A stretch of DNA of 32,731 nucleotides from Candidatus Moranbacteria bacterium CG23_combo_of_CG06-09_8_20_14_all_35_22 (GTDB taxonomy: Bacteria > Patescibacteriota > Minisyncoccia > Moranbacterales > UBA2206): positions 1,802 through 34,532 of the forward strand of contig PCRW01000076.1 of the NCBI GenBank assembly GCA_002772115.1, read 5' to 3'. Every line of letters starts with the position of its first letter. The first letter of the stretch is position 1. The position numbers were made by a program, and so were the translations under genes. Shown here piece after piece: positions 5,075 to 32,587 of the stretch. Under the pieces are notes generated by a model that saw only the letters and a program-made list of their open reading frames with translations, was not told the origin of the DNA and searched no databases.

Positions 5075-6649
5075 TTATTCCACCCAATACTTCTTCTTCA
5101 TCAATTCTTCCTCCTCTTTCTTTTCTTCTTCGATTTTTTTCTTAGCCATCACGCGAAGATCGTTAAGATCTTTTTTATTTAAAGCTTTCGCCAAATTTAA
5201 TAAATCTTTTTTATTATTCAGTTTTTGATCATCAATCACCTCGGCTAGCATCACATCCAAGATTGCCCCAATTTTTGGTCCGGGTTGAAGTTTTAATTCT
5301 TTTATCAAATCATTGCCATTAATTTTGAGTTGCTTGACCGAAATTGCATCGTGCGAAACTTTTTCCACCATAAATTTGAAATGACGCAGTTTATATGGCA
5401 CGGCTTTTGCCACGCCTGACCCAAGTCGATCAGCAATTCGTACATCGATTAAATCATTGATATTTTCCACGCCAACTTTTTGCACCACTCGACGCACTCC
5501 CGATTCACCCACTTCATCCACATTGTAGTAGAACATATGATTTTTCACAAGCATCACAGTTTTCTCAATAACCTTCCTTGGATATTTCATCCGTTCTAAA
5601 ATTTTCTCCGCCATTTTTGCACCGACATATTCATGCGAATAGAAAGTTGCCATTTCCCCAGTTCCTCTTTTTGATTTCGGTTTTCCAATATCATGCAAAA
5701 ATGAGGCCAACCGCACTTCTAACTTGGATGACGGACATTTTTCTAAGCTAGCCAGAAGATGCGCATAAACCGTGTTGTATGGTCCAAAATAATGATGGCG
5801 ATTTTGCTTTATCCCAATTGCTTCAATTATCTCAGGAATAAATTCATCCATCAATTTACTTTCCACTAAAAGTTCCACCCCCCCACTTGGATCACTTGAA
5901 AGAATTATCTTATTGAATTCATCTCGAATTCTTTCTTGTGAAATAAATCGTAAATTTTTCGCATTCTTCTTGATCGCCAAAAAAGTTTTTTCTTCGATAG
6001 TCCAACTATTTTGAATTTGAGATTTTGAATTTGAAATTTGTTTGTTATTTGTTATTTGAGATTTGTTATTTCCGCTAAGCTGAACAGCGAAGCGGACTGC
6101 TCGCATCATCCGCAGTGCATCCTCATCAAATCTTTCATTTGCATCCCCTACTGCCCGAATTATTTTATTCTTAAGATCTTCTTGCCCCCCAAACAAATCA
6201 ATAATTTCATATTTGTCTTTTGTTTCATGTTTCATGTTGCATGCTACATGAATTGCCATCGCATTCACCGTAAAATCTCTTCTTGAAAGATCTTCTCCTA
6301 AAGTTTTAGCAAATTTCACCTCATCCGGATGACGCTTATCAGAATATTTTGATTCGATACGATATGTGGTAATTTCCACATTCGGCCCATCCCAATCTTT
6401 TTCTTCTACGCCCTCAATATATTTCAAAGGCAACATCACTGTCCCAAAATCATTCTCATATTTTCCGTCTGGAAAGATTTTCAAAATTTCCTCCGGCTTT
6501 CCATTTGTTGCAATGTCCCAATCCTTCGGTTCCTTTTCTAACATCAAATCCCGCACACATCCACCAACTATATACGCCTCAAAACCAGCCCATTCGAGCT
6601 TTCTAATAACTTCTATTATATATTGAGGGAATTCTATTTTTTTAGTCAT
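5075..6649 (-). CDS. cca: CCA tRNA nucleotidyltransferase with HD domain
   Basis: AYIVGGCVRDLMLEKEPKDWDIATNG, SRRDFTVNAMAIH, HDIGKPK; contains low-complexity insertions NNKSQITNNKQISNSKSQIQNS and ACNMKHETKDKYE. Confidence 0.93.
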   Translation of the reverse strand: MTKKIEFPQYIIEVIRKLEWAGFEAYIVGGCVRDLMLEKEPKDWDIATNGKPEEILKIFPDGKYENDFGTVMLPLKYIEGVEEKDWDGPNVEITTYRIESKYSDKRHPDEVKFAKTLGEDLSRRDFTVNAMAIHVACNMKHETKDKYEIIDLFGGQEDLKNKIIRAVGDANERFDEDALRMMRAVRFAVQLSGNNKSQITNNKQISNSKSQIQNSWTIEEKTFLAIKKNAKNLRFISQERIRDEFNKIILSSDPSGGVELLVESKLMDEFIPEIIEAIGIKQNRHHYFGPYNTVYAHLLASLEKCPSSKLEVRLASFLHDIGKPKSKRGTGEMATFYSHEYVGAKMAEKILERMKYPRKVIEKTVMLVKNHMFYYNVDEVGESGVRRVVQKVGVENINDLIDVRIADRLGSGVAKAVPYKLRHFKFMVEKVSHDAISVKQLKINGNDLIKELKLQPGPKIGAILDVMLAEVIDDQKLNNKKDLLNLAKALNKKDLNDLRVMAKKKIEEEKKEEEELMKKKYWVE

Positions 6650-7985: not shown

Positions 7986-8002
7986 TTCCTTTTAAAATCA
8001 CA

Positions 8003-8031
8003 AAAAAAATCACTACGCAGTGATTTTTTTT
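8003..8031 (+). terminator. Rho-independent terminator
   Basis: AAAAAAATCACT ACGC AGTGATTTTTTT. Confidence 0.85.
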
Positions 8032-8041
8032 ATTTGTTTTG

Positions 8042-8240
8042 TGTCCCCACCAAGAATCGAACTTGAATCTAGAGCTTCCGCCAAAGGCGGACAAGTAGGA
8101 GTCTCTGTTCCCCGCCTGCCATCGCCTGTGCCCTCGTCAAGAATCGAACTTGAATCTAGAGCTTAGGAGTCTCTTGTTCTATCCGTTGAACTACGAGGGC
8201 TCAGGCAAAGGCGGGCAGGTATCCATTGAACTATGAGGAC
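8042..8240 (-). pseudogene. Split tRNA-Arg(CCT)-like gene interrupted by two repeat insertions, one containing an intact tRNA
   Basis: Pieces 8240-8220, 8110-8096 and 8076-8042 join to GTCCTCATAGTTCAATGGATA+GAACAGAGACTCCTA+AGCTCTAGATTCAAGTTCGATTCTTGGTGGGGACA, a 71-nt cloverleaf with acceptor GTCCTCA/TGGGGAC. Confidence 0.75.
8129..8200 (-). tRNA. tRNA-Arg(CCT)
   Basis: GCCCTCGTAGTTCAACGGATAGAACAAGAGACTCCTAAGCTCTAGATTCAAGTTCGATTCTTGACGAGGGCA; loop CTCCTAA. Confidence 0.9.
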
Positions 8241-8245
8241 AATCG

Positions 8246-8872
8246 TTAGGTTAATTCTTTTTTAATAAATTTTATCATACTTATAATTAACTTGAATGAT
8301 TTTGTGCCGTTAGTGACTCTTACTCTGCACATACCATAAGGTAATTTTCCTTCTTTCTTTCCTTTTAGCACATTTACATTTACAATACTTTTTATGTTTA
8401 TTCTGCACACTTTTGCCCAATATTTTTTTGATTCATTGATATTTATACTATCATATATTCTTATTGAAACGCGCAAATCATCTTTATTAACACCAATCTC
8501 TTTTATGCAAGAAATGAATACGCGAATAAGATCTGGGTCACTATTAATAATATTCAAGTCTTTTTTTGTTCCCTCTCCCCAATAAATAGCCGCAAGAATT
8601 AAAAGTTTTTCTTTTTTTGAAATTTTTTTTAATAATTTTTTTGCATTATATTCAGATTCTTTCCATAATTTTTCGGCCCTAACAATACTACCTCCTTGCT
8701 TTCTTTTAAGAATATCCGCAAATTCAGGCAAAACAGCTACTTCTTTCGTATATCTCTGGATTGTAGATTTACCTCTTCCTAACACTGTGCAAATTTCAGA
8801 TATACTATGCCCTTTTTGACGAAGGTTTTTAATCTGATTAGCTTCTTTTTTTGTTATAATTTTTCCATTCAT
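8246..8872 (-). CDS. HTH protein with LAGLIDADG homing endonuclease-like domain
   Basis: N-terminal resolvase-like HTH (GHSISEICTVLGRGKSTIQRY); LLILAAIYWGEGTKKDLNIINSDPDLIRVFISCIKEIG resembles a LAGLIDADG helix followed by the N-S-D-P segment. Confidence 0.55.
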   Translation of the reverse strand: MNGKIITKKEANQIKNLRQKGHSISEICTVLGRGKSTIQRYTKEVAVLPEFADILKRKQGGSIVRAEKLWKESEYNAKKLLKKISKKEKLLILAAIYWGEGTKKDLNIINSDPDLIRVFISCIKEIGVNKDDLRVSIRIYDSININESKKYWAKVCRINIKSIVNVNVLKGKKEGKLPYGMCRVRVTNGTKSFKLIISMIKFIKKELT

Positions 8873-8917
8873 ATATCAATTATAACATAACGAGCGATAT
8901 AATACAAGGACGGATTT

Positions 8918-8940
8918 GCTCTATCCATTGAGCTATGAGG
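8918..8940 (-). pseudogene. tRNA-Arg 5' relic (acceptor/D-arm)
   Basis: CCTCATAGCTCAATGGATAGAGC, with intact D-stem GCTC/GAGC; nearly identical to the 5' part of the split tRNA; no 3' half adjacent. Confidence 0.7.
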
Positions 8941-9637: not shown

Positions 9638-9729
9638 AGTTTTATTTTTATAAATAATTATATTTTTCTAAAAACATTCATCCCTATTTATTTAAATTTA
9701 AAATTATTTAACAGGGTGAATTTTTTTAG

Positions 9730-9800
9730 TGGACCTATGGAGAATTGGACTCCAGACTGATCCATGCCATGGATCCGTAATACCACTTTACTATAGGCCC
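9730..9800 (-). tRNA. tRNA-Ala(GGC)
   Basis: GGGCCTATAGTAAAGTGGTATTACGGATCCATGGCATGGATCAGTCTGGAGTCCAATTCTCCATAGGTCCA; anticodon loop ATGGCAT; acceptor contains the G3-U70 Ala identity pair. Confidence 0.92.
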
Positions 9801-30205: not shown

Positions 30206-32587
30206 TTATATTTTCTTGATTGGCGCAATTGAAGCGGAAAGTTTTTTAAGCCCTGATTTAGAAAATGCCACAGTGATAATATCGCCTTGACTCGCCACGA
30301 TTAATCCTTCGCCAAAAGTTTCGTGCGATACTCGATCACCATCGGTAAAAATAATTTTTACCTTATTTTCCCTCTCCTTTCCAAGGAGAGGGTTAGGGTG
30401 AGGTTTAGTGTTTCCGCTTTCTATTAGATGTTCTGGCACATCGTCCAGAAATCGACTTGGCGCATTAATTTGAGTGGAACCAAAAATATTTCTCATACGG
30501 GTAAAAAGCAGATAAACTTTTTCCATCGCCCGAGTCACTCCCACATACATCAGGCGCCTTTCTTCTTCCATTTCGCTGTCATCTAATATACTTCGGGAAT
30601 GGGGCAAAATTCCTTCTTCCAATCCTGCGATAAAAACAATTTTAAATTCTAAACCTTTCGCACTGTGTAGTGTCATAAGATGAACCGCATCTTTCGCTTG
30701 ATCAATATTATCCGTGTCAGAAACCAAAGCTACTTCTTCTAGAAATAATCTTAAACCCTCCCCGCCTCGCGTCGACGAGCGGTCATCTCCGCGAGTCAAG
30801 GCGGGATTACTTTCATACTCGCTATATTTTTTGGCGACCGTCAAAAGTTCGCGTACATTTTCATTTCTCATTTCTCCTTCTTCCGTTCCATCCATCAGAA
30901 ATTTTTCATATCCTGATTCGCTATAAACTTTTTGAATGAAATCCGTAAGAATCAATTTTTCTTTGAGCTCCGCCATTCGTTTTATAAATTCGCAAAATTT
31001 TACAATTGCATCTATTTTTGAATTTTGAATTTTATTTTTTGGAACCTGCCTGCCGGTAGGCAAGGTTTGATCATTAGAATTTGAAAATTCATTGGAAATT
31101 GATATTTGGAAATTGGAAATTGCGAGGCCACAAGATATTAAATCTAAATTATTACTCCTAGCTATATTAATCCATTTTCCCAAAGTAACATCCCCAACGC
31201 CTCGCTTTGGTTCATTAATTATTCTTTCCAATGAAGTTTCATCATTAAAATTATTAATTAAACGCAAATAGGCAACCACATCTTTGATTTCTTTTCTTTG
31301 ATAAAATTTCACTCCACCAATAATTCGGTAGGGAATAGAAGCACGAAGCATCGCTTCTTCAATCATCCGTGATTGTGCGTTGGTGCGATAAAGCACCACG
31401 AAATCAGAAAACTTATATCTGTCATTCCGGACTTGATCCGGAATCTCTTGAGATCCTGAAACCCGCCCGCCGGCGAGACAGGCAAGTCCAGAATGACATA
31501 TTTTTTTTATCTCATCTACAATAAACTGCGCTTCTTCTTTTTCATCTTCCGCTTCAAACCTCGTTATCAAATGTCCGCTCTGGTTTTGAGTCCAAATTTT
31601 TTTGTCTTTGCGATTGATATTTTTAGAAATCACGCCATAAGCCGCGTCCAAAATATTTTGCGTGGAACGATAATTTTGGATTAATTTAATAGTTTTAACC
31701 TCTGGATAATCTTTCTCAAAATTTAATATATTAGTTATATCCGCGCCTCTAAATTTATAGATACTTTGATCATCATCACCCACAACACATAGGTTTCTAG
31801 ATTTTTGTGACAATAATTTAATAAGAACATATTGCGCGCGGTTGGTATCTTGATATTCATCCACCATAATATAGCGAAAAAAATTCTGATATTTTTCTAA
31901 CACTTCCGGAAATTTCTGAAAAATTTTAACTGTGATCATCAAAATATCATCAAAATCCAAAGCATCTTGTTCTTTCAATTTTTTCTGGTAATTTATATAT
32001 ATTTTCGCCACCATTTCTTCAAAATATCCGCCCACTCCCGCCAAAAAATCTTCTGATCCAATTAGTTCATTTTTCGCTTTGGAAATTGCGCCTAAAATTG
32101 TCTTGGGCTTGAATTGATCAATGTTTATTTCCATTTCTTTCATCACTTTTTTTATCAGCGCCAGCTGATCCTGATCATCAAAAATATTAAAGGAACTTTT
32201 ATATCCAACTTTTTCAATTTCCCGCCTTAGAATTTTTACACAAATAGAATGAAAAGTCCCGACAGTCGGCATGTCGGGATGGCCACCCTCTCCTTTATAA
32301 GGAGAGGGGCTGGGGGTGAGGTCATTCGCATCATTCGCATCAATTCGCGTATTTGCATTAAGCAACTCTTTTATTCTTTCTTTCATCTCTCCCGCCGCTT
32401 TATTGGTAAAAGTCACTGCCAAAATCCTCCTTGGATTGATCTTTTTTTCGCAAATCAAATACGCCACTCGATGAGTGAGCGCCCGCGTTTTCCCTGACCC
32501 CGCACCCGCAATAATCAAAACCGGTCCTTCCGTCGTCATCACTGCCTCTCTCTGTGGAGCATTAAGTTTTTCCAAAATTTCCTGCAT
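30206..32587 (-). CDS. pcrA: UvrD/PcrA-family ATP-dependent DNA helicase with multiple in-frame repeat insertions
   Basis: LNAPQREAV, IIAGAGSGKTRALTHRVAYL, VDEYQDTNRAQY, VGDDDQSIYKFRGADI, LMTLHSAKGLEF, RRLMYVGVTRA. Confidence 0.95.
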   Translation of the reverse strand: MQEILEKLNAPQREAVMTTEGPVLIIAGAGSGKTRALTHRVAYLICEKKINPRRILAVTFTNKAAGEMKERIKELLNANTRIDANDANDLTPSPSPYKGEGGHPDMPTVGTFHSICVKILRREIEKVGYKSSFNIFDDQDQLALIKKVMKEMEINIDQFKPKTILGAISKAKNELIGSEDFLAGVGGYFEEMVAKIYINYQKKLKEQDALDFDDILMITVKIFQKFPEVLEKYQNFFRYIMVDEYQDTNRAQYVLIKLLSQKSRNLCVVGDDDQSIYKFRGADITNILNFEKDYPEVKTIKLIQNYRSTQNILDAAYGVISKNINRKDKKIWTQNQSGHLITRFEAEDEKEEAQFIVDEIKKICHSGLACLAGGRVSGSQEIPDQVRNDRYKFSDFVVLYRTNAQSRMIEEAMLRASIPYRIIGGVKFYQRKEIKDVVAYLRLINNFNDETSLERIINEPKRGVGDVTLGKWINIARSNNLDLISCGLAISNFQISISNEFSNSNDQTLPTGRQVPKNKIQNSKIDAIVKFCEFIKRMAELKEKLILTDFIQKVYSESGYEKFLMDGTEEGEMRNENVRELLTVAKKYSEYESNPALTRGDDRSSTRGGEGLRLFLEEVALVSDTDNIDQAKDAVHLMTLHSAKGLEFKIVFIAGLEEGILPHSRSILDDSEMEEERRLMYVGVTRAMEKVYLLFTRMRNIFGSTQINAPSRFLDDVPEHLIESGNTKPHPNPLLGKERENKVKIIFTDGDRVSHETFGEGLIVASQGDIITVAFSKSGLKKLSASIAPIKKI
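30761..30805. repeat. GC-rich palindromic element, copy 3, inside the helicase gene
   Basis: CCCGCCTCGCGTCGACGAGCGGTCATCTCCGCGAGTCAAGGCGGG, encodes NPALTRGDDRSSTRGGE. Confidence 0.92.

Follow-up and report, generated by a model that had tools for sequence, protein, structure and literature searches.

Nested tRNA-Arg(CCT) genes in a Patescibacterium: a tRNA locus probably overwritten in layers by self-compensating insertions

Background

tRNA genes are regarded as the most conserved parts of genomes and as passive docking sites. A locus in a Moranbacteria-type Patescibacterium raises the question of how a complete tRNA-Arg(CCT) gene came to lie within the split remains of another gene for the same isoacceptor. 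The locus is situated in a stretch of 32,731 nucleotides (the window) from Candidatus Moranbacteria bacterium CG23_combo_of_CG06-09_8_20_14_all_35_22, whose fragmented assembly (G000) comprises 906 kb in 82 contigs with 25 detected tRNAs, and whose nearest named relative is the Candidatus Moranbacteria genome G001. In the initial annotation, the arrangement had been ascribed to a duplication of the tRNA gene plus an invasion of repeats.

Results

Organization of the locus

The tRNA-Arg(CCT) gene on the minus strand between positions 8240 and 8042 is interrupted twice, in the D loop by a 109-bp insert (8219-8111) and in the anticodon loop by a 19-bp palindrome. In the 109-bp insert (the cassette), an intact tRNA-Arg(CCT) is enclosed by a GC-rich arm on either side. 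The following features, all on the minus strand, are found in the direction of reading:

8908..8940, minus strand: 5' half of a former tRNA-Arg(CCT), preserved as a relic (CCTCATAGCTCAATGGATAGAGCAAATCCGTCC) with the break after C35 of the anticodon; 34 nt identical to the inner tRNA of G005
8879..8907, minus strand: promoter-like TTGTAT-17-TATAAT abutting the break point and directed towards the ORF and the tRNAs (from reading of the sequence)
8246..8872, minus strand: ORF of 208 aa with HTH and LYWGEGxK (LAGLIDADG-like) domain, putative homing endonuclease (Pfam HTH_38/HTH_7; family profile against I-DmoI)
8220..8240, minus strand: outer tRNA-Arg(CCT), 5' part, nt 1-21 (sequence, ARAGORN)
8201..8219, minus strand: left arm of the cassette (CCTGCCCGCCTTTGCCTGA); its initial 17 bases are the same in G005, arm family found class-wide
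8129..8200, minus strand: inner, intact tRNA-Arg(CCT) (ARAGORN 8128-8200; Rfam 63.5 bits)
8111..8128, minus strand: right arm of the cassette (CAGGCGATGGCAGGCGGG); identical in G005, predicted to base-pair with the left arm
8096..8110, minus strand: outer tRNA-Arg(CCT), middle part, from the 3' side of the D stem to nt 37; nt 26 missing
8077..8095, minus strand: cargo-free palindrome of 19 bp interrupting the anticodon loop of the outer copy (CTTGTCCGCCTTTGGCGGA); read by ARAGORN as a 19-nt intron
8042..8076, minus strand: outer tRNA-Arg(CCT), 3' part (sequence, ARAGORN)
8002..8031, minus strand: terminator-like hairpin and T run at the end of the locus (read from the sequence); conserved in G001 and G002

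Apart from the inner gene, none of the tRNAs detected in the assembly is a complete tRNA-Arg(CCT); a second copy could be missing from these fragmented contigs. The outer copy is shorter than the inner one by a single nucleotide, position 26 being absent. When the whole block was folded as RNA, a z value of -5 relative to shuffled sequence was obtained, with the arms pairing below the inner acceptor stem. The 19-bp palindrome is present once in the window, against 0.03 expected copies, and no version of the cassette without cargo or with a short loop was found within the genus.

On recheck, all coordinates previously given for the split gene proved exact to the base, and the acceptor-stem differences between the outer and the inner copy are compensatory, as had been claimed. 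After excision of both inserts, ARAGORN calls the 71-nt joint product as tRNA-Arg(CCT), and when the 109-bp insert alone is removed and introns are permitted, the same tRNA with an intron of 19 nt is obtained; the proposed cloverleaf is nevertheless imperfect on account of the missing position 26. Concerning the arms, their description as repeats applies to Patescibacteria, through which the family is scattered, but they are not a high-copy repeat of their own genome, in which only one occurrence was found at up to 2 mismatches.

Elsewhere in the window, two unrelated ORFs (130-468 and 30206-32587) contain a similar insert (DPASTRGDDRSSTRGGE and NPALTRGDDRSSTRGGE, respectively), which suggests that repeats have been inserted in frame into proteins of the host genome. 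A tRNA-Ala(GGC) at 9729-9800 was called by ARAGORN and is absent from the Rfam list for the window; in the genome search, it matched with 53.6 bits.

The upstream ORF and its tRNA-linked family

The earlier reading was incomplete in that it did not include an upstream nuclease-like element with a displaced tRNA half of its own. The outer tRNA-Arg(CCT) starts directly behind the 208-aa ORF, which is the one long ORF in the block 9019-8042 and is not an integrase. The element thus comprises a displaced 5' relic upstream (33 nt in the window) and a full, regenerated tRNA behind the ORF. On the minus strand at 9015-8950, upstream of the relic, there are two further stretches resembling badly decayed 5' halves of tRNAs (TTTTTCATAGTTTAATAACTA and GTGTAGTTGAAAGGTATAGG), which suggests even older layers.

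In the conserved C-terminal domain of the ORF family, for which Pfam yielded no matching family, Y97, E100, and G101 are invariant in 22 sequences, and the motif helix ending in an acidic residue (LYWGEGxK) aligns to the LAGLIDADG motif of the homing endonuclease I-DmoI. The family profile matched I-DmoI with an E value of 1.7e-5 (0.008 for the members not linked to Arg alone). Since Pfam and NCBIfam yielded HTH or transposase-type matches only, and no curated LAGLIDADG model matched the ORF, the protein is termed LAGLIDADG-like here and is not filed as a member. The AlphaFold model of the 208-aa protein, computed from the single sequence only, has a pLDDT of 54 and gave no significant Foldseek match. 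Relatives of the ORF were not found in phage records and viral contigs.

In 37 of 40 relatives of the ORF, a tRNA on the same strand starts at most about 45 nt from the stop codon. The three closest members in the family, including that of the window, are all situated directly upstream of tRNA-Arg(CCT), nearly all class-wide members at E<=1e-20 adjoin Arg(CCT), and remoter members precede tRNAs for Gly, Gln, Trp, Phe, Tyr, Met, or other Arg. At L117-L139, paralogous ORFs with HTH and LYWGEGxK immediately precede tRNAs for Gly, Gln, Trp, Phe, Tyr, Met, and Arg(TCG).

A cognate 5' relic ending at or before the anticodon is present upstream in 7 of 20 Arg-linked loci, i.e., the relic position of the window is repeated in six others. 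Cognate relics scored at least 39, as compared to 19-28 for non-cognate tRNA halves in six loci and 33 in the window. A TTGAAC or TTGACA similar to the promoter-like motif of the window follows the GTCC break at L116, L146, L148, L151, and L152. In nine Arg-linked ORFs (L116, L146-L148, L150, L151, L159, L161, L162), the reading frame ends within the tRNA, its stop codon being the TAG of positions 8-10, the TAA of the anticodon loop, or situated further in, such that 5' processing of the tRNA would strip the stop codon from the ORF mRNA.

The same locus in related genomes

In G001, the flanks on both sides are around 96% identical to those of the window, and a single plain tRNA-Arg(CCT) is situated between them, which matches the inner copy of the window at 51 of 72 positions; the 208-aa ORF is missing from the syntenic place. 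G005, in turn, exhibits the nested layout with the same D-loop point, and its tRNA is clearly diverged in sequence from that of the window; its outer copy additionally carries a palindrome in the T loop. G002 and G006 possess an intact tRNA and, behind it, a residual 3' end whose T loop contains a palindrome; leftovers similar to this type are found after the tRNA in G014, G028, G031, and G033. In G016, the nested copy is situated in the T loop and its arms are unrelated. Leftover tRNA-Arg 3' ends with a T-loop palindrome (often CCTGCCTGCCGGCAGGCAGG) also occur behind an intact tRNA at L004, L089, L109, L112, L113, and L144, in several genomes belonging to the family of the window. A putative tRNA CCA-adding enzyme, recognized by protein motifs, is the next gene downstream of tRNA-Arg(CCT) at L085-L087, L090, L092, L094, L104, L105, and L140; in the window, such a gene lies at 5075-6649, around 1.4 kb from tRNA-Arg(CCT).

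Both the uninterrupted gene (G001, L003) and the nested form (G005, L002) are thus found at the syntenic locus of sister genomes. The proposal that repeat-like DNA entered a former tRNA gene is borne out, and the joined parts of the outer copy form a tRNA-Arg(CCT). Since nested, plain, and leftover forms coexist among relatives, the tRNA-Arg(CCT) locus evidently turns over via wholesale replacement.

Recurrence of tRNA-bearing cassettes in the class

A search of 392 genomes of the class for arm pairs situated 80-110 nt apart, in which the flanks were ignored, yielded 44 matches in 24 genomes, as compared to none with the reversed pattern. This control, together with the identical layout in the sister G005 despite its diverged tRNA, implies that the nested layout is not due to chance. 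A complete tRNA is situated between the arms in 19 of the 44 matches (17 genomes), and in 18 of these 19 the outer flanks make up a whole or partial tRNA that has the isoacceptor identity and orientation of the inner one and is interrupted in its D, anticodon, or T loop; in the remaining one, a Thr(GGT) at L192, the flanks are too decayed to be classified. None of the 19 tRNA-bearing cassettes was found outside a tRNA, which argues against random insertion, given that the search took no account of flanks. The matched isoacceptors in the scan are Thr(TGT), Thr(CGT), Arg(CCT), Arg(TCT), Pro(GGG), Pro(TGG), Cys(GCA), Gln(TTG), and Gly(TCC); four further nested cases were found beyond it, three with variant arms (Arg(CCG), Val(GAC), and G005) and one with other arms (G016). 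As a general explanation, assembly error is unlikely in view of 23 nested loci in 20 genomes, although most of these are draft assemblies.

The insertion points are always situated in tRNA loops or at a loop edge and recur between remotely related families, with TAGA^GC as the D-loop point of Thr tRNAs (L168, L176, L177, L179, L194) and GGATA^GARC in that of Arg tRNAs (the window, L002, L070, L178), whereas in Pro(TGG), Arg(TCT), Gly, and one Thr the insertion is mostly found between anticodon bases 35 and 36. In three cases (L171, L173, L184), the cassette is inverted relative to both tRNAs, the inner and outer of which still agree in direction. The bases beside the arms vary (GATA, TAGA, TTTG, TCTG, and others, by inspection only).

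After removal of the cassette, the outer isoacceptor was recovered outright by ARAGORN in eight cases. Identity between inner and outer copy ranges from 66 to 90% (n = 13 pairs), most pairs exhibiting 66-83%, so that the inner copy usually appears to be a different allele and not a fresh local duplicate; in the window (89%) and in G005, i.e., the pairs around 90%, conversion or local duplication is possible. The inner acceptor stem is paired at 7/7 positions in all 13 pairs and the outer one fully in 10 of 13, for which reason many of the insertions look recent; ruined outer copies occur as well (L177 and L178 are truncated, and L176 has 3/7 acceptor pairs).

Palindromes of the same family without cargo are common outside tRNAs. 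The same arms also enclose around 80 nt of non-tRNA sequence (L164, L165, L167, L172, L174, L175, L181-L183, L188-L191, L193), often alike among copies within one genome, and at L165 and L189 the flanks resemble tRNA relics. An Rfam scan of these cassettes with non-tRNA cargo gave no family, only neighbouring tRNAs.

Discussion

On comparative sequence evidence, the locus is probably a resident tRNA-Arg(CCT) gene that two types of self-compensating mobile insertions have overwritten layer by layer. In the order suggested by the nesting, a LAGLIDADG-type homing-endonuclease element would have entered the anticodon loop between bases 35 and 36; a dead 5' half would have remained upstream, and a complete tRNA-Arg(CCT), today's outer copy, would have come to lie immediately after the ORF. 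The 109-bp palindrome-flanked cassette with a different complete tRNA-Arg(CCT) would then have entered the D loop of the outer copy, with the inner tRNA taking over, and the 19-bp palindrome without cargo would finally have entered the outer copy, by then dispensable, at its anticodon loop. The inner tRNA, which we read as the working gene, would be co-transcribed with the outer parts and released by normal 5' and 3' tRNA processing, the outer parts being discarded. The outer tRNA is most likely dead, as insertion sites vary, several outer copies are ruined, and the inner copy makes it redundant.

We infer that the ORF protein cuts DNA; its target would be the uninterrupted tRNA gene at the anticodon, and the element would spread via break repair, bringing the replacement tRNA. 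The cassette may follow the same logic without a gene of its own, depending on a nuclease acting in trans or on recombination of incoming DNA, and would arrive from outside together with its tRNA. That the insertion itself delivers the spare tRNA is suggested by the different alleles and by the isoacceptor match recurring for Thr, Pro, Cys, Val, Gly, Gln, and other Arg tRNAs. Homing-style delivery, in which a break in a tRNA loop is repaired from incoming DNA, is our preferred guess for the cassette, which we hold tentatively.

The view of the initial annotation, i.e., an ordinary tandem duplication of tRNA-Arg(CCT) and a subsequent, unrelated insertion of repeats into the spare copy, agrees with the high identity of the inner and outer copies in the window. 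It leaves unexplained, however, the exact place of the spare between the arms of a palindrome, and it requires a unique event, contradicted by the recurrence for about a dozen isoacceptors and by the lower identity of most inner and outer pairs; hence the invasion stands, whereas simple duplication is hardly to be credited. Highly improbable, too, is an intron-like element, with the outer tRNA still spliced and one transcript giving rise to two tRNAs. The arms do form a long GC-rich stem, superficially like archaeal split-tRNA precursors, ARAGORN places the 19-bp insert at the usual intron site, and most outer acceptor stems are intact, a state that fits recent insertion and that a maintained outer tRNA would also fit. 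Yet the insertions lie not only at 37/38, where the earlier hint of splicing had its basis, but also in the D loop, at 34/35, at 35/36, and in the T loop, several outer copies (those of L176-L178) are beyond use, and an outer tRNA is redundant given the inner copy. Bacteria, moreover, are not known to possess a tRNA splicing endonuclease of the archaeal type.

Two further explanations concern the way in which the cassette came to lie in a matching tRNA. Selection only, with palindromes inserting at random, a second tRNA copy captured by chance in the palindrome loop, and survival restricted to cells in which the captured tRNA matched an outer gene that was needed, would accommodate the common cargo-less palindromes outside tRNAs, and the location of both palindromes and tRNA in hairpin loops could suit a loop-breaking repair. 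We nevertheless regard it as rather unlikely, since random capture predicts tRNA-bearing palindromes at neutral sites (0 of 19) and isoacceptor-specific insertion points are repeated in distant families. That Y1 transposases (REP-associated, IS200-like) moved a two-palindrome unit in which a tRNA was enclosed by coincidence is unlikely as well, and somewhat more so: although the host has five Y1_Tnp matches, and two inverted palindromes around a segment resemble a transposable REP pair, Y1_Tnp is not discriminating (230 of 392 genomes versus 12 of 17 tRNA-nested ones), five tRNA-nested genomes are without a match, no constant tetranucleotide is found beside the arms, and a transposase with random targets leaves the matched cargo unexplained.

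The proposed overwriting by self-compensating insertions has partial counterparts in known systems. Mobile ORFs (mORFs) of fungal mitochondria bring a replacement gene end, e.g., for atp6 in Allomyces and Glomus (PMC3630166), and share with the ORF element the LAGLIDADG-type ORF, the insertion in a gene, the foreign replacement part, and the displaced dead part; they replace, however, the C terminus of a protein gene, whereas the ORF element affects a tRNA gene, in a bacterium, and the 5' half of that gene. Genomic islands integrate in tRNA genes by tyrosine integrases (Islander, PMC4383910), and there, too, the tRNA target is split and regenerated by DNA of the element, with a displaced fragment remaining; in contrast to islands, no integrase is present here, the ORF element displaces the 5' half, and the cassette brings a whole tRNA and leaves its target split around it.

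CPR bacteria also harbour LAGLIDADG homing endonucleases within insertions of their rRNA genes, e.g., I-ShaI (PMC11270868); these resemble the ORF family in host group, single LAGLIDADG motif, and target-specific spread, but they reside in rRNA genes and match LAGLIDADG models of Pfam, whereas the tRNA-linked ORF family has no such match and carries an N-terminal HTH; the text of that paper does not mention tRNA. SegB of phage T4 is a free-standing homing endonuclease in a tRNA gene region (PMC2988022), as the ORF described here would be, but belongs to the GIY-YIG family, is inserted intergenically, and does not replace a tRNA. REP palindromes and BIMEs (PMC3733652) are short, GC-rich, and dispersed as are the palindromes of the cassette, in which, however, no GTAG/CGTC end tag was seen and which carries a tRNA as cargo and lies within tRNA loops. 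None of the mORFs, islands, CPR rRNA endonucleases, and SegB corresponds to a palindrome cassette with a whole matching tRNA. In the open-licence literature, no description was found of nested tRNAs of the same isoacceptor or of tRNA-linked LAGLIDADG genes in Patescibacteria, which is weak evidence. The broad kind would be tRNA-targeting, gene-restoring mobile DNA, and there is a real chance that the cassette constitutes a class of its own.

Conclusions

It is quite possible, though we put this forward with caution, that a new class of mobile DNA exists in Patescibacteria, namely cassettes of around 110 bp that possess no gene for movement and carry as cargo a foreign version of exactly the tRNA that they disrupt. 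Their insertion would be targeted to isoacceptors, each hop would harmlessly swap the tRNA of the host for the allele of the element, and their hosts would be shared with tRNA-linked, nuclease-like genes of the same break-and-replace logic. tRNA genes would here be repeatedly overwritten, with the replacement supplied by the invader. The divergence of tRNA-Arg(CCT) between nearly identical flanks in the window and G001 bears on tRNA phylogenies, and automatic tRNA annotation is affected, as the nested outer copy goes uncalled. The ORF family may serve as a catalogue of candidate tRNA-specific nucleases, in which the adjacent tRNA would predict the target, and the locus as a whole bears on how selfish DNA can strike essential genes.
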